Assembly (NCBI RefSeq): GCF_001045555.1
Contig: NZ_LFBU01000001.1
Span: forward strand, 434,001-498,000
Direction: 5' to 3'
DNA length: 64,000 nucleotides
DNA from: Marinobacter subterrani
GTDB lineage: Bacteria; Pseudomonadota; Gammaproteobacteria; Pseudomonadales; Oleiphilaceae
The position numbers and the translations under genes were made by a program. Each line of letters opens with the position of its first letter. The stretch's first letter is position 1. Below the pieces are notes generated by a model, which saw only the letters and a program-made list of their open reading frames with translations, was not told where the DNA came from and made no database searches. This document shows, in pieces, positions 38,214 to 57,210 of the stretch.

Positions 38214-39929
38214 ATGAGCACAGACGATAAGATGGGCAAACGCCGGCGCTCTGCTCTACGTGGCCGTCAACTGGAACCGGCGGTACTGTCGGAGCTGCGG
38301 GACCTGATCGGTGACGAACGTGTCGATTCGTCATTGCGCCACCGCGATCGCCTTATCGAGCACCTGCATGCACTGCAGGACGCAGACGGTTACCTCTCCA
38401 TGCCCCGCCTTCGGGCCCTTGCGGCTTTCATGAACCTGCCCATGGCCGCCATTTATGAAACGGCCACGTTCTACGCCCATTTCGACGTCATTCACGACGA
38501 ACAAACCCCACCGCCGGATATAACTCTGCGGGTGTGTGATTCGCTGTCGTGCCAATTGGCGGGGGCGGAAGCGCTGCATCAAGCGCTGTCTGAAGGGGCT
38601 GATCCCGAAGCCGTGAGAGTGCTGCGTGCGCCCTGCATGGGGCGCTGCGACACGGCGCCAGTGGTGGAAGTCGGCCATCATCACGTTTGCCATGCCAACG
38701 CCGAGAATGTGGGAGCTGCGGTAGAGCAGGGCCAGATTCAACCGGAAGAAATCCAATGGCAAGGCCTGGCGGATTATCGTTCAGCCGGCGGTTATGGACT
38801 GCTGGCCGATTGCCATGAAGGCCGGGTGAGCGTCGAATCGCTGGCGAAGGAACTCGAGCATGCGGGCCTGCGCGGCCTGGGCGGCGCGGGATTTCCAACC
38901 TTCCGAAAATGGCAGGCCGTGCGGGCGGAGCCGGGCCCACGCTACGCGGTGATCAATGCCGACGAGGGCGAGCCGGGCACCTTCAAAGATCGCTATTACC
39001 TGGAACGTGCCCCCCACGTCTTCCTGGAAGGTGCACTGGTTAGCGCCTGGGCGGTTGAGGCGAAGGCCCTCTACATATACTTGCGGGACGAGTATCCCGG
39101 CCTGCACCGTGTGCTGAAGGAGGCCATTGCCGAGCTGGAATCAGCCGAAATCGTTGAACAGGGCTTCGTGATCCTGCGCCGGGGCGCGGGTGCCTATATC
39201 TGTGGCGAGGAATCCGCCCTGATCGAGTCCCTGGAAGGCAAGCCGGGCAAGCCACGACATCGCCCGCCGTTCGTTGCCCAGAAAGGACTGTTTGGCCAGC
39301 CCACCCTGGTTAACAACGTCGAGACCGTTTACTGGATTCCCCGCATCCACGCCCAGGGCGCCGACTGGTTCGCCAGCCAGGGTCGGCATGGTCGCAAGGG
39401 GCTTCGCAGCTTTTCGGTGTCCGGTCGGGTCGCGCGGCCGGGTGTGCATGTCGCACCCGCTGGCATCACCCTCAATGAATTGATCGAGGAATACTGCGGC
39501 GGCATGGCCGAAGGGCATCGCCTGCTGGCTTATCTGCCCGGCGGGGCATCCGGTGGCATACTGCCGGCCAGCAAAGCTGATATTCCCTTGGATTTCGACA
39601 CCCTGCAGGAGCACGGCTGCTTCATCGGCTCTGCTGCCGTGATCGTTCTGTCGGATCAGGACGATTTGCAGGCTGCGGCTGCCAACCTGTTGGGCTTCTT
39701 CGCGGACGAATCCTGCGGCCAGTGCACGCCCTGCCGTGTGGGCACCGAGAAAATGCTCACTTTGCTGGAGCGGGATACCTGGGATGAGCAGACGCTGCAG
39801 CAACTGGCCAAAGTGATGGCGGATGCGTCCATTTGTGGTCTGGGCCAGGCGGCCCCAAATCCGGTGCTGAGCCTGCTGCGCGATTTCCGCAGTGAACTTG
39901 CCAGCCAAAAACTGATTGCCAAAGGGTAG
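38214..39929 (+). CDS. fdsB: NAD-linked formate dehydrogenase beta subunit, NuoE-NuoF fusion
   Basis: 571 residues that pass electrons from the alpha subunit to NAD+. The N-terminal third is a NuoE/FdsG-like [2Fe-2S] thioredoxin-fold domain (VCDSLSCQLAGAEAL, APCMGRCDTAPVVEV). The rest is the NuoF/FdsB part: FMN- and NADH-binding RGLGGAGFPTFRKW and INADEGEPGTFKDRYYLER, then the [4Fe-4S] motif SCGQCTPCRVGTEKML. In Ralstonia-type FdsGBA these are two proteins; here they are one. ATG at 38214. The alpha subunit starts 10 bases after the stop. No fdhD or fdsC/D gene is present beside them. Confidence 0.93.
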   Translation: MSTDDKMGKRRRSALRGRQLEPAVLSELRDLIGDERVDSSLRHRDRLIEHLHALQDADGYLSMPRLRALAAFMNLPMAAIYETATFYAHFDVIHDEQTPPPDITLRVCDSLSCQLAGAEALHQALSEGADPEAVRVLRAPCMGRCDTAPVVEVGHHHVCHANAENVGAAVEQGQIQPEEIQWQGLADYRSAGGYGLLADCHEGRVSVESLAKELEHAGLRGLGGAGFPTFRKWQAVRAEPGPRYAVINADEGEPGTFKDRYYLERAPHVFLEGALVSAWAVEAKALYIYLRDEYPGLHRVLKEAIAELESAEIVEQGFVILRRGAGAYICGEESALIESLEGKPGKPRHRPPFVAQKGLFGQPTLVNNVETVYWIPRIHAQGADWFASQGRHGRKGLRSFSVSGRVARPGVHVAPAGITLNELIEEYCGGMAEGHRLLAYLPGGASGGILPASKADIPLDFDTLQEHGCFIGSAAVIVLSDQDDLQAAAANLLGFFADESCGQCTPCRVGTEKMLTLLERDTWDEQTLQQLAKVMADASICGLGQAAPNPVLSLLRDFRSELASQKLIAKG

Positions 39930-39939
39930 GGAGGCCGCC

Positions 39940-42810
39940 ATGAGCGATTCCAGCACAAGTTTTACCCTGACCCTGGACGACGTGGAAGTGCAGGCCTACC
40001 CCGGCGAAATTCTGTGGCAGGTGGCCAAGCGCGCCGGCGAGACCATCCCGCACCTTTGCTTCAAAGACGCCCCGGGTTACCGCGCGGATGGCAATTGCCG
40101 CGCCTGCATGGTGGAAGTGGAGGGTGAGCGGGTGCTCGCCGCAAGTTGTATCCGCGAGGCAGCGCCCGGCATGGTGGTGCGAAGCGCAGCCTCCGCCCGT
40201 GCCCAGGAAGCCAGAAGAGCGGTGCTGGAATTGCTGCTAGCCGATCAACCTGCGCAAGATAGCAGCCCCGATCGTTCAAGCCACTTATGGGAAACGGCGG
40301 ATCAACTGGCGATTGATGTCGGGGATGTGCGCCAGCGCCTCCCGGCCCGTTCAGAGCGCAACGAGCCAACGGTTCACCATGTTGCGCCACGGTCGGAATC
40401 GCTTGCCCACGCCCGGGGCCATGACGCCACTCACTCTGCCATGAACGTGAATCTGGACGCCTGCATCACCTGCGGGTTGTGCGAGCGCGCCTGCCGCGAA
40501 GTGCAGGGCAACGACGTCATCGGCCTGGCGCATCGCGGTGCCGCTTCCAAAGTGGTGTTTGATTTCGATGATCCCATGGGTGACAGCACCTGCGTTGCCT
40601 GTGGCGAATGCGTGCAGGCATGCCCGACGGGCGCGCTCATGCCCGCCACCCTGATTGATGCCCGGGGCCGCGGAGACTCCGCCACGGCCGACCGAACCGT
40701 GGACTCCGTTTGCCCCTACTGTGGCGTGGGCTGCCAACTGACCTATCACGTCAAGGACGGTCCTGCCGATGCCGAAGGAGCAGCAGGCGAGCATCGAGGG
40801 CGTATTCTCTTTGTAGAAGGCAAAGATGGCCCCTCAAACCAGGGCCGGCTATGCGTGAAAGGCCGTTTTGGCTTCGATTACCCCTCACATCCGGCGCGGC
40901 TCACCCGGCCGCTGATTCGCCGGGAGGGCGTCCCCAAGAGGCTCGACCCGGACTTTGATCCGGCCCATCCGTTAACGCACTTTCGAGAGGCAAGCTGGGA
41001 TGAGGCACTGGATCTTGCAGCAAGCGGATTAACCCAACTTAAAACCCAACACGGACCGGATGCGCTCGCCGGTTTCGGCAGTGCCAAGTGCTCCAACGAA
41101 GAAGCCTGGCTGTTCCAGAAACTGGTGCGCACCGGTTTCGGCTCGAACCACGTTGATCACTGCACGCGGCTTTGCCACGCCAGCTCCGTGGCCGCATTGA
41201 TGGAGTGCCTGGGCTCTGGTGCAGTAACTGCATCCTTCATGCAGGCGCTTGAGGCGGACGTGGTCATCCTCACCGGCTGCAACCCGGCCGTAAACCACCC
41301 GGTGGCCGCCACCTACTTCAAGCAGGCAGCACGCAACGGCACGAAACTGATCATCATCGATCCCCGGGGCCAGGCGCTGGATGCCTATGCCTGGCGGAGC
41401 CTTCGTTTCTCGCCGGGTGGCGACGTGTCACTGTTCAACGCCATGCTCAATGTGATTATCAGCGAAGGACTCTTTGACCAGGCCTACATTGACGCCCACA
41501 CCGAAGGCTTCGAGGCATTGGCGGCCAGCGTTGAGGGCATGACCCCGGAAGTGATGAGCCCGGTCTGCGGCGTGGCGCCCGACACCATTCGTGAAGTGGC
41601 CCGAGCCTACGCGGGTGCGGAGCGCGCGATGATTTTCTGGGGCATGGGCATCTCCCAGCACGTGCACGGCACCGACAACGCCCGCTGCCTGATTTCCCTG
41701 GCCCTGACTTGCGGCCACACCGGCCGGCCCGGCACTGGTCTGCACCCACTGCGGGGGCAGAACAACGTGCAGGGTGCCTCCGATGCCGGCCTGATCCCCA
41801 TGGTACTGCCCGACTACCAACCGGTCGGGGATGCCCAGTTGCGCGCCGCCTTCGAAGAGCTCTGGAACACCGAATTGGACCCGAAGCCGGGGCTCACCGT
41901 GGTGGAGATTATGGATGCCATCAGGGCGGGCACGATCAAAGGCATGTACATCCTCGGCGAAAACCCCGCGATGTCCGATCCGGATCTGACCCACGCCCGG
42001 GCCGCGCTCGCTGCCCTGGAGCACCTGGTGGTACAGGATCTGTTCGTCACAGAGACTGCCCAGTTTGCCGACGTTATCCTGCCTGCCGCCGCCTGGTCGG
42101 AAAAGTCAGGCACCGTCACCAACACCAACCGCCAAGTGCAAATGGGCCGTGCTGCACTGTCGCCTCCGGGAGAGGCAAAGCCCGACTGGTGGGTTATCCA
42201 GGAAGTTGCCCGGCGCTTCGGGCTGGGTTGGAACTATGCCGGCCCCGAGCAAGTGTTTGAAGAAATGAAGCAGGGCATGCACTCACTGGATCATATCTCC
42301 TGGTCTCGCCTGGAGCGCGAGGGGTCCGTCACCTATCCATGCCCTGCAGATGACGCCCCGGGACAGGACGTTGTCTTCTCCGATGCCTTCCCGCGCGCAG
42401 GAGGCCGTGCCAGATTCTCACCGGCCAGCCCACTGCCACCGGATGAGCCGGTGGATGATGCCTATCCCATCGTGCTAACAACCGGGCGATTGCTTGAGCA
42501 CTGGCATACCGGCGCCATGACCCGTCGCAGCCGAGTGCTGGACGAGCGGGAGCCGGAAGCTGCAGCCTATCTGGCACCAGCGGAGCTGGATCGTATGGGC
42601 GTAGCACCGGGTAATAACATTCAAATTGCCACCCGGCGCGGCACCATCACCCTGACGGCACGGGCCGATCAGACCATGCCAGAGGGCATGGTGTTCGTAC
42701 CCTTCGCCTTTGTGGAGGCGGCAGCGAACGTGCTGACTAATCCGGCACTGGATCCCTTCGGGAAGATTCCGGAGTTCAAGTACGCAGCTTGCCGGCTCAG
42801 CCCGGCGTAG
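39940..42810 (+). CDS. fdsA: NAD-linked formate dehydrogenase alpha subunit (molybdenum or tungsten bis-MGD)
   Basis: 956 residues. Oxidises formate to CO2 at a bis-molybdopterin guanine dinucleotide site. Domains in order: plant-type [2Fe-2S] (CFKDAPGYRADGNCRACMVE), a two-cluster ferredoxin part (CITCGLCERACREV and CVACGECVQACP), then the molybdopterin [4Fe-4S] loop CPYCGVGCQL and the catalytic region DHCTRLCHASSV. The active-site residue in the latter is Cys encoded by TGC, so this is not a selenoprotein. Soluble, cytoplasmic. ATG at 39940 follows AGGGAGG. Accessory sulfurtransferase fdhD is not in the window. Confidence 0.94.
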   Translation: MSDSSTSFTLTLDDVEVQAYPGEILWQVAKRAGETIPHLCFKDAPGYRADGNCRACMVEVEGERVLAASCIREAAPGMVVRSAASARAQEARRAVLELLLADQPAQDSSPDRSSHLWETADQLAIDVGDVRQRLPARSERNEPTVHHVAPRSESLAHARGHDATHSAMNVNLDACITCGLCERACREVQGNDVIGLAHRGAASKVVFDFDDPMGDSTCVACGECVQACPTGALMPATLIDARGRGDSATADRTVDSVCPYCGVGCQLTYHVKDGPADAEGAAGEHRGRILFVEGKDGPSNQGRLCVKGRFGFDYPSHPARLTRPLIRREGVPKRLDPDFDPAHPLTHFREASWDEALDLAASGLTQLKTQHGPDALAGFGSAKCSNEEAWLFQKLVRTGFGSNHVDHCTRLCHASSVAALMECLGSGAVTASFMQALEADVVILTGCNPAVNHPVAATYFKQAARNGTKLIIIDPRGQALDAYAWRSLRFSPGGDVSLFNAMLNVIISEGLFDQAYIDAHTEGFEALAASVEGMTPEVMSPVCGVAPDTIREVARAYAGAERAMIFWGMGISQHVHGTDNARCLISLALTCGHTGRPGTGLHPLRGQNNVQGASDAGLIPMVLPDYQPVGDAQLRAAFEELWNTELDPKPGLTVVEIMDAIRAGTIKGMYILGENPAMSDPDLTHARAALAALEHLVVQDLFVTETAQFADVILPAAAWSEKSGTVTNTNRQVQMGRAALSPPGEAKPDWWVIQEVARRFGLGWNYAGPEQVFEEMKQGMHSLDHISWSRLEREGSVTYPCPADDAPGQDVVFSDAFPRAGGRARFSPASPLPPDEPVDDAYPIVLTTGRLLEHWHTGAMTRRSRVLDEREPEAAAYLAPAELDRMGVAPGNNIQIATRRGTITLTARADQTMPEGMVFVPFAFVEAAANVLTNPALDPFGKIPEFKYAACRLSPA

Positions 42811-43216: not shown

Positions 43217-44896
43217 GTGATTGATGTATACAGCCAGAAGGCTAAAGCTTTTTACGACCAGTACCAGTCGCTAACCTTCGAACAGGTTCATCAAGACTGG
43301 CTCTCCTTGCTTGGCGATAAATCAGGTCTTGCTCTAGATGTCGGCGCTGGCAGCGGCCGGGATTCCAGCGCTCTTGCCGCGCGGGGTTGGGATGTTGTCG
43401 CGGTGGAGCCCGCATCTGGCTTGCGAGAGCTGGGGCAGAACGCCACTCGCAATCAAAGCATTCACTGGCTAGACGATCAATTGCCTGATCTGGGCAAGAT
43501 CCGGAAGCTGAGCTATCGCTTCGATCTGATTCTTGTTTCCGCTGTCTGGATGCATATCCCGCCATCCGATCGTGAGCGTGCCTTTCGAATTTTGACTGAG
43601 CTTCTGGCACCCGGTGGAATGCTGGTGATTACACTTCGTCATGGGCCGGGTGATGGCGAACGGCTTTTTTACGATGTCGGTAGGGAAGAGCTGGAGGGTT
43701 TTGCCAAACGCCGGGCACTGATCCCGCTTCCGTTGCCGGCCGGGCGCAATAAGGATGAGCTCCAGAGAGACGAAGTTTCCTGGGAGACTCTGGCTTTTCG
43801 TTTGGCGGACGATGGCACAGGCGCATTGCCGACAGTCCGCCACATCATCGTTAATGATAATAAGTCTTCGACTTACAAATTGGGTTTGCTGCGAACTCTC
43901 GTCCGGATCGCAGACGGTGCGCCCGGCCTGGCGCTTAAACGCACTGATGACTGGGTCGAGATTCCGCTTGGTGCAGTCGGGCTGTTCTGGATTATGCTTT
44001 ATCACCCTCTGGTTCTCCGTCACCAGTTGAGACAGGCGCCAGGTAGCCGTGGCTATGGCTTTGCCACGGACGATTTCTTCAAGCTGAATAGTTTCACGCC
44101 TCTGGATTTCAGAGTGGGTATGTCGCTGTCGGACGACGTTGCTCCGGTGGTCCTGCGCGCTATCCGGGATGCTTGCTCGACCATTCTCAAGAACCCCGCA
44201 CATTTCACGACCTGGCCTGGTAGTAACCGTCCGATCTTCGAGGGCTGTTCGGCCAGGATGATCATCAAGAAGGCACCCGTGCGTTTGGACAAAGCAACGC
44301 TTTCCCGGTTCGGCACCTTCCGCGTTCCTTCATTTCTCTGGGATGCATTCAGTCGCTATGCGTGCTGGATTGAGCCTGCGATTGTTAATGAATGGATTGA
44401 TTTGATGGGTAGCTGGGATCTGCGTTACCGCATGGATGACTATCATCGTGGTTTACAGTGGGTGGAAGGTCGGCGCGATACGTCAGCTGTCCGGCAAATG
44501 ATTAACCAGCAGCTCGAGACTGGTAGGGTCGAGTGCGTATGGACAGCACAGAACCTCAAAGCGAAGCGGTTTGACGTCGACCACTGTTTTCCATGGTCAC
44601 GATGGAACAACAACGATCTTTGGAATCTGATGCCAGCGACTCATACGGCGAATGCCTCTAAGTCCGAAAAGTTACCCGCAGACTTGCTGCTCAAGCAGGC
44701 GCACCCTCGAGTAGTGAACTGGTGGGAGCAAGCCATCGTGGGCACGTCTCGTGAGGAGCAGTTCTTCTCAGAGGCTGAGGCCTCGCTACCATTGCTAGGG
44801 CAGGAGCGAACCGTGGAAGGCGTTTTTGAGGGGATGCTTCAGCAGCGATTGAGGCTGAAAACCAATCTTCAGCTGGCAGAGTGGTTGGGCGTGTAA
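43217..44896 (+). CDS. Class I SAM methyltransferase fused to an HNH nuclease domain
   Basis: 559 residues. N-terminal methyltransferase: SAM loop ALDVGAGSGRDSSALAARGW (39-58), then DLILVSAVWMHIPP and LAPGGMLVITLRHGP. It lacks the (N/D)PPY or PCQ motifs of DNA methyltransferases and looks like UbiE/Methyltransf_11 enzymes. A middle region (about 210-440) includes KSSTYKLGLLRTLVRIADG, a pattern recalled from other HNH proteins of defence loci. The HNH domain is at 452-487: Asp455-His456, Asn470 and Asn479, ending NASKSEKLP. Start is GTG at 43217 with no strong ribosome site. A single-gene defence or toxin role is inferred. Composition is lower in GC than neighbours. Confidence 0.75.
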   Translation: MIDVYSQKAKAFYDQYQSLTFEQVHQDWLSLLGDKSGLALDVGAGSGRDSSALAARGWDVVAVEPASGLRELGQNATRNQSIHWLDDQLPDLGKIRKLSYRFDLILVSAVWMHIPPSDRERAFRILTELLAPGGMLVITLRHGPGDGERLFYDVGREELEGFAKRRALIPLPLPAGRNKDELQRDEVSWETLAFRLADDGTGALPTVRHIIVNDNKSSTYKLGLLRTLVRIADGAPGLALKRTDDWVEIPLGAVGLFWIMLYHPLVLRHQLRQAPGSRGYGFATDDFFKLNSFTPLDFRVGMSLSDDVAPVVLRAIRDACSTILKNPAHFTTWPGSNRPIFEGCSARMIIKKAPVRLDKATLSRFGTFRVPSFLWDAFSRYACWIEPAIVNEWIDLMGSWDLRYRMDDYHRGLQWVEGRRDTSAVRQMINQQLETGRVECVWTAQNLKAKRFDVDHCFPWSRWNNNDLWNLMPATHTANASKSEKLPADLLLKQAHPRVVNWWEQAIVGTSREEQFFSEAEASLPLLGQERTVEGVFEGMLQQRLRLKTNLQLAEWLGV

Positions 44897-46101: not shown

Positions 46102-46338
46102 ATGACCAGTGACAAGCCGCCAGGCGTAGGCATTTTCGCTCATGATTGGCCTGATTTTTTAACCCAGAAAAATGTGCTGGGCGGTCAGGCCTGGTACTAC
46201 CAGCAGATTTTCCGGCTGGCAGATGACCAAGAGGCTGATCCGGATCTGGGCATCCTCAAGGCCGTCGGGGCATACGTGAAGGATGAACTGAGCCGGGCCC
46301 GGAGGGTGAAGAAGGCCCGCCGTCAGCCAGTGGTATAG
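46102..46338 (+). CDS. Unrecognised small protein
   Basis: 78 residues, with a Trp- and Tyr-rich first half (FAHDWPDFLTQKNVLGGQAWYYQQIF) split from a helical middle, and a basic tail RRVKKARRQPVV. No family recognised. ATG at 46102 has no strong ribosome site (GGCAAGGCG is the nearest). The end overlaps the convergent HipA gene by 16 bases. It might be the remnant of a longer gene or a real short protein linked to the TA module; codon use is near the average for the region. Confidence 0.4.
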   Translation: MTSDKPPGVGIFAHDWPDFLTQKNVLGGQAWYYQQIFRLADDQEADPDLGILKAVGAYVKDELSRARRVKKARRQPVV

Positions 46339-47651
46339 ATTTTAAAATCCTGGTGAAGTTTCCCCCAATGCTCTTTCAGCCCTCTTTTGTGAGTCTCATC
46401 CATCGGCAGTGTATCTAATGCTTCCGGCCATAGCTCCCGTGCTTTGCTGAGCGTGTCGTCCAAATGCGGCTTGATCGCCCGCCATGGAACGCCTGACTTT
46501 TCCGCCCACCGCTGAAAGTGCGCCATGGTGACGGCATACCACTCCTTTGTTTTGCCGAGATTGAGCGCGTACTGGGTTTCTCCCTCGATATAAACATTGG
46601 TAGTCACAATATCGTAGGCGGGGGACAGTCGCGGTGTGACCTTGTCGGGGTATAGCAAGCTCCAGTTCTTCAGGTGCGCATCGCCATTTGCCAGGATAAT
46701 ATTAACCAACAAACGCCTGGCAAACTGTTGGGCGTCGGCCAGCCCATCGCCAGAAAAATCATAGATGACCTTGCCGATAGCCTCATAGTTCGCGGATGTG
46801 TATTTTTCGTGGGGGTACTTCACCAAAATTTGGGCGAAGTCTTCCATGTGAATGCGCTGATTGCCCTCGCGGTCGAAGCGCTTGATGGCGAAGGCTTGCT
46901 TCTCATCGGGTAGGTTGATTTGCGGCAGATTATCGAGCTTGTCCAGCTCAACAAGACGGATCTCGGGAATATCAACACCCGCGAGCCCCGCCAGTGACAT
47001 GGCGGTGTATTCGTTCAGCGGTACAAATTTGTGCTTGGTGGAGGGCGTTTTGATGATCCAGTCACCCAGCACATTGTCTTGCGACAAATTGTAACGCCCA
47101 TCGCTTTCCTTCATGGAAAATTTCATTTGCACGCCAGCGAGGGAAAACCGGTCTTTTCCTTTGTTACGAAGAGCCTCTGTATCGAATTTGACCGCTTTGA
47201 CTTTCCCGTGAGTGTTTAGCACGTTGTCGAGTAAATAGGCGGGAACCTCCTGAGGGTCCATGGGGGTGGCTTCGATAGCCCCCGGCAAATCTTTTCCGAG
47301 ATACGAGAGTATCTGAAATTCATTATCGACATGCACCTTCAGGACTTGCGCTGTGAGTTCACGTAGGGCGCCTTCTGGGAGCAGATTAGACAGCACAGGA
47401 TGCAGCCGTTGATTTCGTGCCCACGGTTCCGACATTAGCCTGGCTGCATTCGGAAACGTGGGGTGGGTAATTAAACTGAAGGTTGGGCGTGAGGGATTAT
47501 TTCTGAAGGTATCCGCAATGCTCAATACATTGCGACCATTCTGAAAGCCCGCGAGGTAGCCTACCAGAACGCCATGAATGGTGAGCTGCAATACATTGAC
47601 TTCATCGTTGGCGTTTGGGCTCACTCGTTTTCTCCCAGCAATCCTTGCCAT
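46323..47651 (-). CDS. hipA: HipA-family Ser/Thr kinase toxin
   Basis: 442 residues. The N-terminal HipA_N region (LTIHGVLVGYLAGF...) precedes the kinase domain. Ligand-binding STKHKFVPLNEYTAM, catalytic loop NGDAHLKNWSLLY with Asp324, and LSPAYDIV as the metal-binding motif are intact. HipA toxins phosphorylate glutamyl-tRNA synthetase (E. coli) or other targets and cause growth arrest. It overlaps hipB by 31 bases; a start inside at a later Met is possible. Composition is lower in GC than core genes. Operator repeats are upstream of hipB. Confidence 0.9.
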   Translation of the reverse strand: MARIAGRKRVSPNANDEVNVLQLTIHGVLVGYLAGFQNGRNVLSIADTFRNNPSRPTFSLITHPTFPNAARLMSEPWARNQRLHPVLSNLLPEGALRELTAQVLKVHVDNEFQILSYLGKDLPGAIEATPMDPQEVPAYLLDNVLNTHGKVKAVKFDTEALRNKGKDRFSLAGVQMKFSMKESDGRYNLSQDNVLGDWIIKTPSTKHKFVPLNEYTAMSLAGLAGVDIPEIRLVELDKLDNLPQINLPDEKQAFAIKRFDREGNQRIHMEDFAQILVKYPHEKYTSANYEAIGKVIYDFSGDGLADAQQFARRLLVNIILANGDAHLKNWSLLYPDKVTPRLSPAYDIVTTNVYIEGETQYALNLGKTKEWYAVTMAHFQRWAEKSGVPWRAIKPHLDDTLSKARELWPEALDTLPMDETHKRGLKEHWGKLHQDFKIYTTG

Positions 47652-47944
47652 GGATCATCGGCTAGTGATTCACTTTTTTTCCTGGTGGATTGATCTGGCC
47701 CGCCAGGTGTCGTTGAATCTTCCGCGAGTACAGCCAACACGGCGCTCAGCTTTTCCTGCGGAATAAGCAGCAATTCGCTTTTAAGTCCTTTGGCTACCAG
47801 CTCAAGAGTACCGAGCCTCGGATTGCCTTTGGATTCCAGCCGCTGATATTGCTGGCGGGACATTCCCACGCGCAGCATCATGTCGTGTTGCTTTAGCGCC
47901 AGGGCTTTACGGCGAGTTTTTATCTGTTCGAGTAGTGAATTCAT
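47621..47944 (-). CDS. hipB: HipB-like helix-turn-helix antitoxin
   Basis: 107 residues. The Cro/C1-type HTH at about 10-65 includes KQHDMMLRVGMSRQQYQRLES. The C-terminal tail is Ser/Thr-rich (TPGGPDQSTRKKSESLADD). HipB neutralises HipA and represses the operon. It precedes hipA and overlaps it by 31 bases. Three repeats of GTTGCTATT lie immediately upstream, the likely operator. Confidence 0.87.
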   Translation of the reverse strand: MNSLLEQIKTRRKALALKQHDMMLRVGMSRQQYQRLESKGNPRLGTLELVAKGLKSELLLIPQEKLSAVLAVLAEDSTTPGGPDQSTRKKSESLADDPWQGLLGENE

Positions 47945-51355: not shown

Positions 51356-51385
51356 ATGAATGGTATCCAGATTAACGCTTTATGA
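51356..51385 (+). CDS. Possible 9-codon leader peptide before jetD
   Basis: ATG AAT GGT ATC CAG ATT AAC GCT TTA TGA overlaps the jetD ATG by 4 bases (ATGA). GTGAGG lies upstream. If translated it would be coupled to jetD. It may be a coincidence. Confidence 0.3.
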   Translation: MNGIQINAL

Positions 51386-52221
51386 GTTATTTTGCTTCCC
51401 AGCCCTTACGCAACTCCAAGAATAACCGTGGTACGCCCTTGAACGATTACCTTGAGAAAATCCTCCGTGGCCAGCCCATCAACTATGAAGCCTTCCTCAA
51501 GAAGCTTCCTGAGCCGTTTCGCCAGCGCCATCGGGAACTGTTTGCCACGGAAAAAGTCCAGGCCAACCGGTGGCTGGTTACCGTTCAGGATGAAACCGCT
51601 TTCGCGGAGCTGCAGAATGTTGCAGAGGCTCCCGTCAGCCGGATAGATGCCGCCAAGAAAGGTGACTCCCATCGCCATGGTACCGAGGTCAGTTTTCTTC
51701 TGGTTTACCATCGGAGGCTGGAATCCAGTCGGCCGGATGTGGTGGTCATCGAGAGCGATTGTGTGGATATCGGTTTTCAGCGCGCACGTTCCGTGCTGAT
51801 CGTAGAGAACGAGCGTAACTTCTACCAATACCCAAAGATGCTGCACTTTGCCGGTGAGGCGCTGGGCAAGCGTTTTCATCTTGCGGACTGTGATGTGGTA
51901 TTAGGCGGTGGCAACCGGGTTACCCGGCGCGCGATTCTCGACTGGTTGCAGGGCTATGAAGAAGTATTCTGCGCATTCGATTATGATGCGGGTGGTCTGC
52001 AAATGTTCTCGACGATCGCAGCCTCTCTTGGTGATAAAGCCACGTTTGTCCAGCCGCCCGACTGGCAACCATGGCTGGCGTGGTTCCGCCATATACCGGA
52101 CACCACCGAGCGGTTCACAAGGGCGATATCGTTGGCAGAGGGGCTTGGTTTTGTGCCCCTGGCAGAGGCCTTCCGGGCCACCGGCAAATTCATGGAGCAG
52201 GAGATGATTCTGGATGAGTGA
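51382..52221 (+). CDS. jetD: Wadjet JetD/MksG-like toprim subunit
   Basis: 279 residues, short against the roughly 400 of type I JetD. The toprim-like part has the acidic residues expected of the nuclease: IVENERNF with Glu142, and CAFDYDAGGLQM with Asp200 and Asp202. The N-terminal part (about 1-100) is reduced. In Wadjet systems JetD cleaves plasmid DNA once the JetABC SMC motor has extruded it, so the operon probably restricts circular DNA; MksG plays a similar part in MksBEFG. First gene of the operon; jetC begins inside its last 8 bases (ATGAGTGA). Confidence 0.82.
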   Translation: MSYFASQPLRNSKNNRGTPLNDYLEKILRGQPINYEAFLKKLPEPFRQRHRELFATEKVQANRWLVTVQDETAFAELQNVAEAPVSRIDAAKKGDSHRHGTEVSFLLVYHRRLESSRPDVVVIESDCVDIGFQRARSVLIVENERNFYQYPKMLHFAGEALGKRFHLADCDVVLGGGNRVTRRAILDWLQGYEEVFCAFDYDAGGLQMFSTIAASLGDKATFVQPPDWQPWLAWFRHIPDTTERFTRAISLAEGLGFVPLAEAFRATGKFMEQEMILDE

Positions 52222-55153
52222 CTCCCAGGGGAGCGCAAGCAATTTTACCTTTGGCATCCGCCGTCTGGTGCTGGTGGATTCCGCCGGCTTCTGTTACGTG
52301 GAAATTCCGGTGGACAACCATGGCCTGATCCTGGGCCCGGGCAATCTGGGCAAGTCCAGTCTTTTAAACAGCCTGCGCCTGTTCCTGCTGCCGGAAAACA
52401 ACTTCAAGAACAGCCGCAAGAAATTCGCCTTCCGCAATGCCAGCGCTGGTAGCTTTTACTCCAACGAGGAAAGCTACCAGCATTACTTTCCCAGCCAATT
52501 CAGCTTCCTGATCATGGAAGCGGAAAACCCGGCCGGCGTGCATTGCCAGATTTTGTACCGGGACAGCGCCAGTCAGCTCAGCTATGGCCGTGCTTTCGTG
52601 CCGGTGGGCTACGACCAGCTGCGGCCCCTGTTCTGGAATGGGGATGATGAAGACGGCATTGGCCAGGCGGTGCCGGAGCTGTCGTTCAGCCGTCTGTCCG
52701 AGGCCCTTAAAAAGTTCTCCAAAGACACCCGTCTGGTGAATGATCCGGCGAAACTCAAACAGATGCTGTACAGCAGCGAGCTGATGAACGCCGATGCCGT
52801 GCGTTATTCGGTGCTGCCTTTGGGTGAATCCGACGAGCGCCGGGTGCAGTCTCTGCGCACGTTGATCCTGCTGTTGTTTGAAATGAAGGCGGACGATCAG
52901 GCCATGTCCAACGCGGTGGCCAGCATCATCGAGGCAGACAAGAAGTTTGCCGACGATGCCTTCGATTTTAATATCGATGAGTTTCTCAACCGGCACGATC
53001 AACTGAAGCAACAGCAAATCCAACTGAACCAGATTGAAAAAGAGCGTTCACGGTTCGAGAAGCTGCAAAAGGATTATCAGGCCTACCAAACCCTGCTTCG
53101 CAGCCAGCACGAGTTTGCCGCTTTCAGGGATGGCGTCACCCACGCCTTGCAGGACATTGGCGTCAGGCGTAAAGCCGCAGTGGAGGCGTTCAATGAACAG
53201 AACGACACTCTGCGCCACGTGCTGCAGGCCCTGAAAAAGCTGGAGCAGGACGCCAGCGGCCTGAAGGGCGAGATCCGTTCCGCAGACCGGCGCATCAAGC
53301 AGGCCGAGCAGAACCAGAAAGATGGCGATCTGCTGGTGTCCCAGTACGGGGAGATGACCCTTCAGGAAATCGGGGACATCCAGAAAGAGGAACTTGATAG
53401 CAAGAAAGGGCACCTGGCCGCCCTCAAAAGTGCCGCCCAGGCGGAAATCCGGCTGGAGCAGATCCAGAAAAAGAAGCAGGAACTGGAGCGCAAACTGGCA
53501 TCCCTGAAGGACAGGGAGAGCAAGCAACATTGGCAGTTGCAGAACCAGTTGGATGAAGCCACCGCTGCACCGCTGAGGGCCGTGGACCCCAGATTGGTGA
53601 TGGCCAGCCCGGGCCAGGATCTGGACGCCGACAGCAAGGCGGCCATCGAAGCGTTCGCCCGGCTGTTTGTGCCCACGGACAAAGGCTTTGACTGGTTCGA
53701 TGCTGAATACCCGGTCCAACCGGCCCGGCAGACGGATTTTGCAGAGCAGCGCCGGCATTTGGAAGGGGAGGTTCATGGCCTGGAAAAGGAGCGGGCGGAG
53801 CTGGCAGACACTGCCAACCAGGAACATGACCGACCACGGTTGATCGAGCGCACGGAAAAAGAGATTCGCGCCATCGAAAAGGATCTGGATACCCTGAGCC
53901 GTTACCCGGCCGCGGCCACCACCCTGCGGGACGCTACTGAGGAGAAGCAGGCGGCGGAGGAACAGCTGGCCAAGCTGGAAGAACAGGCCCGGCTGGAGCA
54001 GGAAAAGCAGGATGCGGTTCAGCAGAAGGCCGCCAAAGCCAGGGCAGAAAAAGAGCGTATCGAGGAGCGCGAACGGGAACTGGCGGGCCTGAGCCGAAGC
54101 GTTGGGACCGTCGAGCATCGCTTCCCGCACCTGAAAGCGGTGGAAGCCGAGCAGCCGCTGGCGATTGAGCAGGTGTCTGTTGCCGCGTTCGACGACCTGC
54201 AAACCCAGCTGGACGACCTGGAAGAGCGTCGGCGCAGTATTCTCGATCACCTTCGACAGTTCGTTTATCTGGGCATTCATGACGATGCCGAAGGTGAGCT
54301 GCAGAAAGACAGCCCGGCGTCATCCGTTATCCGCGAAACGTTCAAAAGCCTGTCGGATCTGTTTGCCGGCATGGCCGAGCGCTGGAATGTGCTGGAGCAG
54401 CAAGTCGGCATCCACAATGAAACCGTCGCGAGCTACCGGCAGGCCCTGAAATCCAACCATGAACACATTGCCCGCTTTGAAGCGCAGCTTAACCGGGAAC
54501 TCGACGGCGTGCGCATCAACGACCTGGTGGAAATCCGCGTGGATATCCACACCGATCCGAAATTCCGCAATCTGGTGGAAGAAGCCAACAACATCGATCC
54601 GTATGGCAATCAGCTGCAGTCAGACGCGTTCTATGACCGTTTACGGGTGTTCGTGGCGGACTTTTTCGGGGAGGGCGGTAGCAAGCGACTGACCATGGAC
54701 AAGGTGATCACCGGTATTTCCTACCGAACCCGAAAGGAAAACGCCGCAAACCTGGACAAGAAAGGCCAGTCCACGTCCACCACGGCACTGATCAATCTTG
54801 AACTGGTGTACCGGCTGCTGAAACGGGTGTTGTATCCCGGCGTGCAGCTGTCGTTCCCCATGGTGCTGGACGAGCTGGCCAGTGTGGACATCAGCCAGAT
54901 GCCTTCGCTGCTGGAGCGGCTGCGCAAGCAGGGTTTCAACCTGTTCTCCGCCGCCACCCACAGCGCCAGTGCGGAAGTGATCTACCTGATTGGCAGGCAC
55001 CTGGAAGTGGGGCAGATGCGCACGGCAAAGCCCTACAGCCCGCAGCGCACGCTGGTGTTCTGGGGCGGGGCCGAGGGTTTTACCAACGGCGAATCCCTGA
55101 GCCACTGGGCCGACCAGACCCAGAACAGCCTGCTGGAGCCGGCGGATGAGTAA
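52214..55153 (+). CDS. jetC: Wadjet JetC/MksB-like SMC ATPase
   Basis: 979 residues, SMC-like. Walker A is GPGNLGKSS (41-49). Long coiled-coil runs fill about 240-480 and 515-690, flanking a hinge-like region. The C-terminal head has TSTTALINLELVY and the Walker B FPMVLDELASVD, with Asp886 and Glu887. This is the motor that loops DNA; with JetA and JetB it forms the ring, and JetD cuts. Overlaps of 8 bases with jetD and with jetA. It is the largest gene in the operon, with GC like the core genome. Confidence 0.87.
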   Translation: MSDSQGSASNFTFGIRRLVLVDSAGFCYVEIPVDNHGLILGPGNLGKSSLLNSLRLFLLPENNFKNSRKKFAFRNASAGSFYSNEESYQHYFPSQFSFLIMEAENPAGVHCQILYRDSASQLSYGRAFVPVGYDQLRPLFWNGDDEDGIGQAVPELSFSRLSEALKKFSKDTRLVNDPAKLKQMLYSSELMNADAVRYSVLPLGESDERRVQSLRTLILLLFEMKADDQAMSNAVASIIEADKKFADDAFDFNIDEFLNRHDQLKQQQIQLNQIEKERSRFEKLQKDYQAYQTLLRSQHEFAAFRDGVTHALQDIGVRRKAAVEAFNEQNDTLRHVLQALKKLEQDASGLKGEIRSADRRIKQAEQNQKDGDLLVSQYGEMTLQEIGDIQKEELDSKKGHLAALKSAAQAEIRLEQIQKKKQELERKLASLKDRESKQHWQLQNQLDEATAAPLRAVDPRLVMASPGQDLDADSKAAIEAFARLFVPTDKGFDWFDAEYPVQPARQTDFAEQRRHLEGEVHGLEKERAELADTANQEHDRPRLIERTEKEIRAIEKDLDTLSRYPAAATTLRDATEEKQAAEEQLAKLEEQARLEQEKQDAVQQKAAKARAEKERIEERERELAGLSRSVGTVEHRFPHLKAVEAEQPLAIEQVSVAAFDDLQTQLDDLEERRRSILDHLRQFVYLGIHDDAEGELQKDSPASSVIRETFKSLSDLFAGMAERWNVLEQQVGIHNETVASYRQALKSNHEHIARFEAQLNRELDGVRINDLVEIRVDIHTDPKFRNLVEEANNIDPYGNQLQSDAFYDRLRVFVADFFGEGGSKRLTMDKVITGISYRTRKENAANLDKKGQSTSTTALINLELVYRLLKRVLYPGVQLSFPMVLDELASVDISQMPSLLERLRKQGFNLFSAATHSASAEVIYLIGRHLEVGQMRTAKPYSPQRTLVFWGGAEGFTNGESLSHWADQTQNSLLEPADE

Positions 55154-56591
55154 ACGCTTCAGCACCCTGGACACCACCCGGCTGCTGTTCGAGCACCCGA
55201 AGATTCTGTTCCGGATGATTGAGCGGATGGACCGGAACGAAGCCCGGTATATTCGCGAAAGCGATCTGGTGGCCGAGGTGATGGACTATACCCGCACCCT
55301 TGGCAATGCCGACCGGGACCGGGTGCGGTTGGCGCTGAACACCGACAATCTGTTCCGCAGCGGGCTGGTGATCGACATCATCAAGGCCGAAGGCGAGCGG
55401 CGCCTGGTGTTCCAGGATGCCCTGATCAACCTGATGCGCGCTTGCAACGCCTCGCTGTACCAGGAACTGACCGATGCCCGCCTGCGTGGCCACCTGGTCA
55501 CCCTGCGGGATGTTCGCAACCGGCTGGAGACCAGCAGCTTCAGTGAGGCGGATCCCGATTACACCGAACTGCGGGACGACCTGAACGAACGGGTCAGCCA
55601 GCTGATTGGCCTGCTGCGGCAGAATGTGCTGCGCATGCAGACCATCAGTGCCCAGCTTGCGGATCTGTCCGGCGACGCCAGCCGGGCGCCGGAGAAATAC
55701 CTGGAGTTCCGCCAGAACCTGTTCGAGCAGATCGTTACCCTGTACGAGCGCCACATCAAACCGACCCTGGTGTTTCTGAACCCGGACACACGACTGCCCG
55801 ATGGCAGCAACCTGTTCGAGACCCTGGAAGCCATCGTCCGGCTGCTGGAAACCCACGACGACCAAAACCTGGCGGACCAGTTGTTCCGGTCCTCCATCAG
55901 CCTGAATGCCCTGTATAAACCGATTTCAGCGGTGGCCCAGGAGGTGGAGCACTTCCTGCGCAAGACCCGGCAGGGCATGGTCCAGTACAACGCCATGGAG
56001 CATTTTTACGGCAAGCTGCAGGAGCTCAAGAGCGAAACCGAGACCCTCAGCCTGAAACGTAAATGGCTGGAGGGCGGGGACTTTGCTCGCAGCACCGGCT
56101 TCCTTGTCGGACTGCGGGCCCAGCAGCGTCCTAAACACTACGCCTTCGGGAACTCATCCAGCTACTATCAGTTGCTGTTCAGCGAACTGGCGCTGCGCCT
56201 GAACGATCTTCGCCGCAAAGCCGAGGTGCCCGTTCTGCAGCAGGTCGATGGCAGCGGTCGCCATACCCGGATTGATGTCCAGCGTATCAACCAGCTCTAT
56301 CAATGGCTGGAAACCCTGGAGCTTCGGCCCACTTCCGATCTGGTGCGGGAGCTGCACGGCCGCCTGGACGGCTTTATTCCCGGCTATCGCTTCCCGGACC
56401 TGTTGGCAGCTCTGAACCGGCTGGTAAACTCGCCGCCGGCGGGCCTGCAGGTAGTCACCACCAACCGTTTCCGAATTCTGGACCAGTCATCGGACAGCGA
56501 GCAATTTGTCTACCGCAAACGCCGTCTGGAAAATCTGGAACCTACTGAAAGCAACGCCCCGGTCAATCAAGAAGAGCAACAGCATGCCTGA
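55146..56591 (+). CDS. jetA: Wadjet JetA/MksF-like kleisin subunit
   Basis: 481 residues, helix-rich, no enzyme motif. The start RFSTLDTTRLLFEHPKILFRMIERMD matches the kleisin-like winged-helix N-terminus of MksF/JetA proteins; a long helical middle region and a conserved C-terminal part follow. The kleisin bridges the two SMC heads of JetC and binds JetB. ATG at 55146 lies inside the jetC stop (ATGAGTAA, 8 bases). It was assigned by position and pattern; a database search would show whether it matches MksF or JetA type. Confidence 0.78.
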   Translation: MSKRFSTLDTTRLLFEHPKILFRMIERMDRNEARYIRESDLVAEVMDYTRTLGNADRDRVRLALNTDNLFRSGLVIDIIKAEGERRLVFQDALINLMRACNASLYQELTDARLRGHLVTLRDVRNRLETSSFSEADPDYTELRDDLNERVSQLIGLLRQNVLRMQTISAQLADLSGDASRAPEKYLEFRQNLFEQIVTLYERHIKPTLVFLNPDTRLPDGSNLFETLEAIVRLLETHDDQNLADQLFRSSISLNALYKPISAVAQEVEHFLRKTRQGMVQYNAMEHFYGKLQELKSETETLSLKRKWLEGGDFARSTGFLVGLRAQQRPKHYAFGNSSSYYQLLFSELALRLNDLRRKAEVPVLQQVDGSGRHTRIDVQRINQLYQWLETLELRPTSDLVRELHGRLDGFIPGYRFPDLLAALNRLVNSPPAGLQVVTTNRFRILDQSSDSEQFVYRKRRLENLEPTESNAPVNQEEQQHA

Positions 56592-57210
56592 ATTCTCTGA
56601 CGCGATGGATACCACCGAATCCGCCGATCATTCACAAACTTCGAGCAGCTTCGAGCAGATCCTGCCGGCACACAGCGCCGCGACTTATCGGGAATTCCAG
56701 GCCGGCCGGGTGATTGTGCGTGATGTCTGGGACAGCAACCGCTCAGAGTTGCGAGCCAACCCGCTCTACAACCTGCTGTACAACCATCTGTCCCATTTCC
56801 GGACCTTCTACGAACATCTGGGCAGCGAGCTGGTGTTTAACGAAACCGGCGCGTTTTTCTTTCTCAAGGAAAGCAGTGACGACGAGAACGAGGAACACGA
56901 CGAGAACGCGTTCCGGGTGCAGGTGATACTTCTGTTGATCGGGCGCTATTTTGCCCGCAGCGGTCGCGACTTGGAATACCTTGGGCGCCCGGATGCCGGG
57001 CTGAACGAGCAAGACCTGTCGGCATTGGAGAGCGATGAGGAATATCAGGAGATTCTCAGGGCGGCCCGCTTTGAAAAAGGGGTCCCGGAAGCCCTGGACT
57101 ACCTGGATAAACGCCATCTCCTGTTCCGTGCTGGCGCCGGTCGCTGCTTCCTGAGTTCCGCCGGTCTCTATTTTCTGCAGGAGCTGGTGCGGGAGTATGA
57201 GCAGGGATAG
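56584..57210 (+). CDS. jetB: Wadjet JetB/MksE-like subunit
   Basis: 208 residues. The sequence LPAHSAATYREFQAGRVIV, LYNHLSHFRTFYEHLGSELVFN, and a winged-helix-like middle (EALDYLDKRHLLFR) fit MksE/JetB, the KITE-type partner that binds the kleisin. The N-terminal 25 residues are acidic and disordered. ATG at 56584 overlaps jetA by 8 bases (ATGCCTGA), the same overlap as at the other two junctions. Last gene of the operon; converges with the patatin gene 12 bases on. Confidence 0.78.
   Translation: MPEFSDAMDTTESADHSQTSSSFEQILPAHSAATYREFQAGRVIVRDVWDSNRSELRANPLYNLLYNHLSHFRTFYEHLGSELVFNETGAFFFLKESSDDENEEHDENAFRVQVILLLIGRYFARSGRDLEYLGRPDAGLNEQDLSALESDEEYQEILRAARFEKGVPEALDYLDKRHLLFRAGAGRCFLSSAGLYFLQELVREYEQG

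Follow-up and report, generated by a model that had tools for sequence, protein, structure and literature searches.

What does a bacterium do with a protein that joins a methyltransferase of non-DNA type to an HNH nuclease domain? The question is raised by an open reading frame (ORF) of Marinobacter subterrani (NCBI RefSeq assembly GCF_001045555.1), at positions 43217–44896 on the + strand of a 64,000-nucleotide stretch of contig NZ_LFBU01000001.1 (positions 434,001 to 498,000) that we refer to as the window. The ORF encodes 559 amino acids (aa) from a GTG start. It belongs to a widespread and apparently undescribed family of methyltransferase (MTase)-HNH proteins, and we rate the protein as a probable restriction-like defense nuclease carrying an unusual MTase module. 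The explanation we favor, at roughly even odds (about 0.5), is a single-gene nuclease against mobile elements, phage or plasmid, whose genomic company allies it to type IV restriction and whose MTase would gate or license the HNH domain. Genomes and loci are cited by our G and L numbers where they need to be told apart.

Domain architecture and conservation

An initial annotation, made without database searches, had described a single-gene fusion of the two domains, and this description holds: the ORF is exact and Pfam finds both. The N-terminal part (aa 1–195, 43217–43801) is a class I S-adenosylmethionine (SAM) MTase domain with a UbiG/TehB/ChlM/CmoM-like fold, matched by Methyltransf_23/11/25/12 at aa 33–140 (E 2.6e-11 to 1.5e-10); it has the Rossmann fold, a GxGxG-type loop and an acidic residue, E64, after strand 2, as in Methyltransf_11/23/25. 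A mostly helical middle region follows (aa 196–415, 43802–44461). The C-terminal part holds a Cas9-like HNH domain (HNH_4, PF13395, aa 444–487, E 2e-8), whose beta-beta-alpha metal core at aa 440–482 (44534–44662) carries the DH...N...N pattern and includes the predicted catalytic pair Asp455-His456 (44579–44584).

A protein search scored 7996 candidates, 2520 of them at E<=1e-3. Looking for proteins with both domains was a step proposed with the initial annotation, and MTase and HNH_4 Pfam domains are both present in 116 of the 120 relatives listed; given this family search, the pairing is far beyond chance. We recovered 41 distinct loci from named genomes, and MTase-HNH fusions have hosts in Proteobacteria and, as metagenome-assembled genomes only, in Nitrospirota, Acidobacteriota and Actinomycetes. 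A 93%-identical copy filed under a metagenome-assembled Rhodopirellula genome (L002) probably comes from a Marinobacter contig that was mis-binned. Public records name the relatives 'methyltransferase domain-containing protein' or 'HNH endonuclease', and no paper on the fusion was found in the literature searched, which lay outside most subscription papers and all preprints.

No PADLOC model spans the full length of the window protein. The best PADLOC match of its MTase part is mad2 of the MADS system (PDLC04134, E 3.7e-14, aa 15–171), but this match spans only 156 of the 492 profile positions; MADS combines a mad2-like MTase with other mad genes, and no other mad match was found among the 10 window proteins scanned. 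The HNH domain resembles that of Cas9 in family (HNH_4) and fold, but a Pfam scan matched no RuvC or guide-RNA-binding family in the window protein.

Both active regions are strongly conserved across phyla, in an alignment of 56 sequences, the window's included. On the HNH side, D455, H456, N470, N479 and K482 are invariant; the initial annotation had singled out the first four and staked its reading on their conservation. The SAM-binding motif I (aa 39–58, GAGxGRD, 43331–43390) lies where that annotation placed the SAM loop, with G43, A44, G47, R48 and D49 invariant and G45 conserved in at least 90%. At the motif-IV position (aa 108–113, 43538–43555) the protein reads SAVWMH, in which V110 is invariant and S108, A109, W111, M112 and H113 are each conserved in at least 90%. 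DNA MTases carry a DPPY-type or PC catalytic motif; the alignment contains neither, which sets the family apart from type II and type IIG restriction-modification (R-M) enzymes. SAVWMH at this position excludes a standard DNA methylase by motif, as the initial annotation had argued. The nearest fold matches of the MTase are small-molecule, tRNA and peptide MTases, including the tRNA MTases CmoM and METTL6; in the fold search with the full model, MTases filled all of the matches listed, and further PDB families are possible beyond those.

Summed ratios of nonsynonymous to synonymous substitution rates (dN/dS), computed from pairs with dS between 0.05 and 1.5 among 15 Marinobacter sequences, are 0.136 for the MTase (41 pairs), 0.072 for the middle region (38 pairs) and 0.067 for the HNH part (30 pairs). 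Each of the three parts is under purifying selection, so no part is decaying, and the HNH and middle parts are more constrained than the MTase.

Genomic company

Full-length copies occur in 32 of 124 Marinobacter genomes (the copy in G078 has an internal stop), with pieces in others; order-wide, 20 of 371 genomes match the window protein at E<=1e-40, with full-length copies in 13. Sixteen of the 32 Marinobacter copies lie directly behind a gene for a SauUSI-type type IV enzyme (PLD, ResIII and DUF3427; E 1.2e-225 to PADLOC mREase_IV), and 16 lie elsewhere. Counting SauUSI-type genes whose main piece has at least 83% identity gave 24 in Marinobacter, and in 22 of these an MTase or remnant is found 11–20 nucleotides (nt) after the gene (16 full-length MTase-HNH, one with a broken HNH, three MTase-only and two remnants). 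For the remaining two (G005, G116), the SauUSI gene runs into a contig end, and the genome yielded no MTase match. At all five junctions that were read (L003, L005, L009, L073, L091) the ATG of the MTase lies inside the SauUSI stop, as an ATGA overlap.

The window's own genome also has a SauUSI gene (G000 C1:1143112–1146240, 89% identity), followed by a stump of MTase-HNH consisting of roughly the first 48 residues and then a frame that ends like the gene's own last codons. The window copy therefore stands alone and intact, with about 664 kb between it and a SauUSI gene that lost its own copy. The stump (within locus L091, G000 C1:1133001–1152000) looks like the product of a large internal deletion.

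The window copy is flanked by a formate-dehydrogenase-like gene, which reads as the alpha subunit (39916–42810, from its sequence rather than a family scan), and by SOUL and SDR genes. In other strains the site is occupied by SauUSI, MTase-HNH and an SbcC-like ATPase (L003), by an MTase-SauUSI fusion (L072), by a Dnd island with an HNH-only relative (L078), or by Dnd genes with a truncated MTase-HNH (L132/L133). Such differing cargo at one site across strains marks it as a defense hotspot. The initial annotation would have been undercut by orthologues at a constant housekeeping locus; their presence is instead patchy and the site swaps cargo. The gene is also somewhat low in GC (guanine plus cytosine) content, 0.550 against 0.585 for the window, as had been remarked.

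Outside Marinobacter, the mapping of neighborhoods for defense genes that the initial annotation called for yielded a clear contrast. At E<=1e-15, the 130 neighbor ORFs of 24 loci matched 71 PADLOC families, whereas 120 control ORFs from 15 stretches matched 2; the unit here is the family rather than the protein, and several of the models overlap one another. Neighbors were up to three ORFs per side of at least 130 aa; loci from Marinobacter were excluded, as was L038, which nearly duplicates L028. The set comprises 130 of 131 such ORFs, L022:7272–12317 (1682 aa) being left out to keep it within 50,000 residues. The controls were stretches of other genomes of the class, mostly starting near contig starts, of which 15 of 20 were used after five shorter than 11 kb were dropped. 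Among the matches listed are pAgo, Lamassu, AbiEi, PbeA and type IV restriction endonuclease families. Individual neighbors include an Argonaute (L017), a SauUSI-type enzyme (L024), HNH_2 proteins (L022, L029, L062, L023), McrC by annotation (L063), a Cap4 nuclease (L041), an ABC-3C domain (L030) and a NERD-helicase (L034).

Relatives of the methyltransferase with other partners

MTase-only Marinobacter forms (L073, L075, L076) nest at separate places in the MTase-HNH tree, which probably reflects repeated loss of the HNH with an open MTase left behind. In a deep, separate lineage, the MTase forms the N-terminal part of a fusion with SauUSI (L072, 1282 aa; L077, 1279 aa); judged by frame length (1184–1310 aa), this fusion occurs in 25 Marinobacter genomes, with an MTase match inside such a frame in eight. 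A branch of length 4.6 separates the SauUSI-fused from the HNH-fused MTases, and a recent common origin of the two is unsupported. None of the 124 genomes holds both the MTase-SauUSI fusion (25) and a full-length MTase-HNH (32; hypergeometric P 2e-4), but phylogeny was uncontrolled in this comparison and we set mutual exclusion aside as evidence.

The tie to SauUSI is one of association: it is the Marinobacter operon partner, through the 4-nt overlap; a related MTase is fused to it elsewhere; and both keep defense company. The window protein itself differs in lacking PLD, helicase and DUF3427, its nuclease being an HNH; the combination of PLD, superfamily 2 helicase and DUF3427 in one chain that defines the SauUSI family is found in the neighboring gene of other strains.

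Stand-alone relatives of the MTase adjoin Dnd or Ssp genes in six loci. The Dnd cases are two Rhizobium plasmids and G045; the Ssp-like cases are in Sphingopyxis, Sphingomonas and Agrobacterium and are labeled by gene make-up (cysteine desulfurase, DUF4007, ATPase and PAPS reductase), which we take to be that of SspABCD. A small protein with two or three hydrophobic segments adjoins or is fused with the MTase in all eight plasmid records holding it (five species; five of the eight records were opened and the rest judged by coordinates). Escherichia phage phi458 carries the same pair, and so do 29 of 5426 E. coli genomes, at 99% identity or above; the one E. coli copy that was opened lies beside an integrase gene and a PAPS-reductase-family gene distantly like DndC (E 8.9e-6). 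Two of the small predicted membrane proteins were scanned and gave no Pfam match.

Since relatives of the MTase are found with an HNH, with SauUSI and with a membrane protein, the MTase looks like a module common to several effectors. Weighing against this pattern are stand-alone relatives that lack Dnd, Ssp or membrane-protein company, which occur in Azospirillum, Burkholderia, Streptomyces (fused to GNAT) and Paraburkholderia.

Two sets of these loci may be recorded separately. Pairs or fusions of the membrane protein and the MTase lie at L126 5549–6579, L129 5522–6594, L134 6597–7594, L067 6560–7579, L127 5581–6582, L070 2336–3519 and L135 4992–6169, in settings that comprise Ssp-like or Dnd genes and E. 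coli prophages. An MTase fused to or adjoining a GNAT acetyltransferase (Streptomyces, Burkholderia, Azospirillum) lies at L125 5947–7077, L069 6971–8246 and L062 9283–11752.

Possible mechanism and competing explanations

In the mechanism we favor, the C-terminal HNH domain would cut invading DNA that the middle region brings to it, and the N-terminal MTase would be a SAM-dependent module that gates or licenses this effector rather than a DNA-base methylase of the R-M type. The substrate of the MTase would probably be a modified nucleotide or nucleic acid. Modules related to it are used with other effectors, namely a SauUSI-type helicase-PLD nuclease, as the next gene or in one chain, and a small membrane protein that adjoins phosphorothioation systems. 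We infer gating because the MTase differs in type from DNA methylases and turns up with partners of three kinds.

A single-chain R-M system, in which the MTase protects self DNA with a mark made by some unusual chemistry and the HNH attacks DNA that lacks it, would fit the sharing of one chain by MTase and nuclease, as in type IIG enzymes, and the retention of an MTase or remnant beside SauUSI in 22 of 24 cases. Such a system is nonetheless unlikely: the catalytic motifs are missing and the fold is closest to MTases of other substrates; only an MTase stump accompanies an open SauUSI gene in G000 and G111 (although G000 has the window gene in trans and G111 is 82% complete); and an open MTase has outlived its HNH in L073, L075 and L076. 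This last observation, together with MTase-only pairs and the presence of CmoM and METTL6 among the fold matches, would instead suit an MTase that is itself the effector, acting on RNA, a nucleotide or a small molecule, with the middle-HNH part merely binding DNA or sensing. The stronger constraint on the HNH and middle parts than on the MTase, and the retained catalytic residues, make this quite improbable. We regard an ordinary housekeeping enzyme or a homing-type gene without a defense role as very improbable: some copies do lie amid metabolic genes with few or no recognized defense genes (L066, and L065 apart from a dGTPase and a NERD-type gene), but the patchy presence, the cargo-swapping site and the PADLOC-rich company all speak against it.

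Another candidate is a type IV enzyme whose middle region would recognize phosphorothioate (PT) DNA and whose MTase would play an accessory part. Among 50 fold matches listed for a C-terminal model, a sulfur-binding domain (SBD) was the only non-HNH fold, as a weak match, and the middle region is tentatively similar to the SBDs of SprMcrA and ScoMcrA in predicted structure only. Like SBD-HNH and SBD-SRA-HNH enzymes (SprMcrA, ScoMcrA, EcoWI), the window protein has a C-terminal HNH behind another domain; theirs is HNH_2, whereas the window protein has HNH_4 and an extra N-terminal MTase. Sequence profiles detected no SBD in the middle region (hhalign probability 0.5% against the SBD N-terminal part). 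A hidden Markov model (HMM) built from 120 SBD-HNH proteins gave, across 233 proteins, weak matches on the HNH and none on the middle; these lay the SBD motif YPFWRL on the HNH motif FPWSRW and are thus attributable to chance. Homology of the middle region to SBDs by sequence is unsupported.

The initial annotation had likened the middle region to HNH proteins of defense loci, and here it is not borne out. HNH-only proteins (around 370 aa; many are cyanobacterial and some lie in Dnd loci) have an HNH half homologous to that of the window protein (hhalign probability 98.9), but profile comparison aligns only this half: their N-terminal parts are not alignable with the middle region (0.5%) or with the SBD (0.2%), and no MTase domain is listed for them. 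A Pfam scan of 34 HNH-only proteins found no SBD family in a library without PF26340, the family listed for SBD-HNH proteins, and so is no evidence either way. The Pfam scan of the window protein used that library too and says equally little about an SBD.

DndC is over its cut-off in 6 of 124 Marinobacter genomes, none with a full-length MTase-HNH against 1.5 expected (P 0.16); DUF4007 is found in four, one of which (G019) holds a full-length copy, and the two markers together give P 0.21. Exclusion between MTase-HNH and phosphorothioation systems is therefore unsupported. In G061, where the copy and DndC are about 11 kb apart, residues 344–471, which hold D455-H456, go unmatched in the copy; this would suit a PT-reading nuclease, as would the occurrence of relatives of both halves in Dnd loci. 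Set against the negative profile tests and the non-significant co-occurrence, we consider a PT-reading enzyme doubtful. The PT link itself is a lead, drawn from the stand-alone MTases and HNH-only relatives in Dnd or Ssp loci and from the weak fold match.

Returning to gating by the MTase, a broader and speculative form of this idea makes the MTase a general immunity gate or sensor for at least three effectors (HNH, SauUSI and the membrane protein). It might act on or report modified nucleic acid such as PT DNA, perhaps through methylation of the sulfur or of a phage-modified base, and firing would then be decided by SAM chemistry and not by base pairing or reading. If true, a non-DNA MTase tied through fusion and operon to two unrelated nucleases, and in relatives to a membrane protein adjoining phosphorothioation systems, would amount to a new trigger principle in bacterial immunity. 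It would also raise the question of why SauUSI enzymes in Marinobacter are accompanied by an MTase, which the type IV model does not require.

Taken overall, the initial annotation's interpretation is partly supported, and one positional claim needs correction: the gene does not lie between toxin-antitoxin and SMC modules, since both are downstream of it. In Dnd islands (L078 6418–10546, L132 15317–17905, L133 75–1555) a TIGR04096 putative methyltransferase is found within a short distance of an HNH-only relative and a HIT-type protein. An island at L074 2876–16575 combines a ZorD-like gene (E 2.5e-188, part scanned), an MTase, a PT-DNA restriction HNH and Dnd genes. At L027 13057–19376 (- strand), near an MTase-HNH gene, a radical SAM protein of 876 aa has as its neighbor a protein of 1235 aa with no Pfam match. 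Within the window, a HipA/HipB-type toxin-antitoxin pair (46323–47944, - strand) lies in the same hotspot as the MTase-HNH gene, and 51382–57210 (+ strand) holds a four-gene Wadjet-like (SMC) cluster. Its first gene is JetD_C-like (Pfam E 1.8e-4, narrowly missing the family's cut-off), its second encodes an SMC-like protein of 979 aa (PADLOC JetC1, E 2.4e-7), and its last two encode proteins of 481 aa (no clear family match) and 234 aa. Homologues of parts of the cluster occupy this site in L003, L007 and L018 as well.
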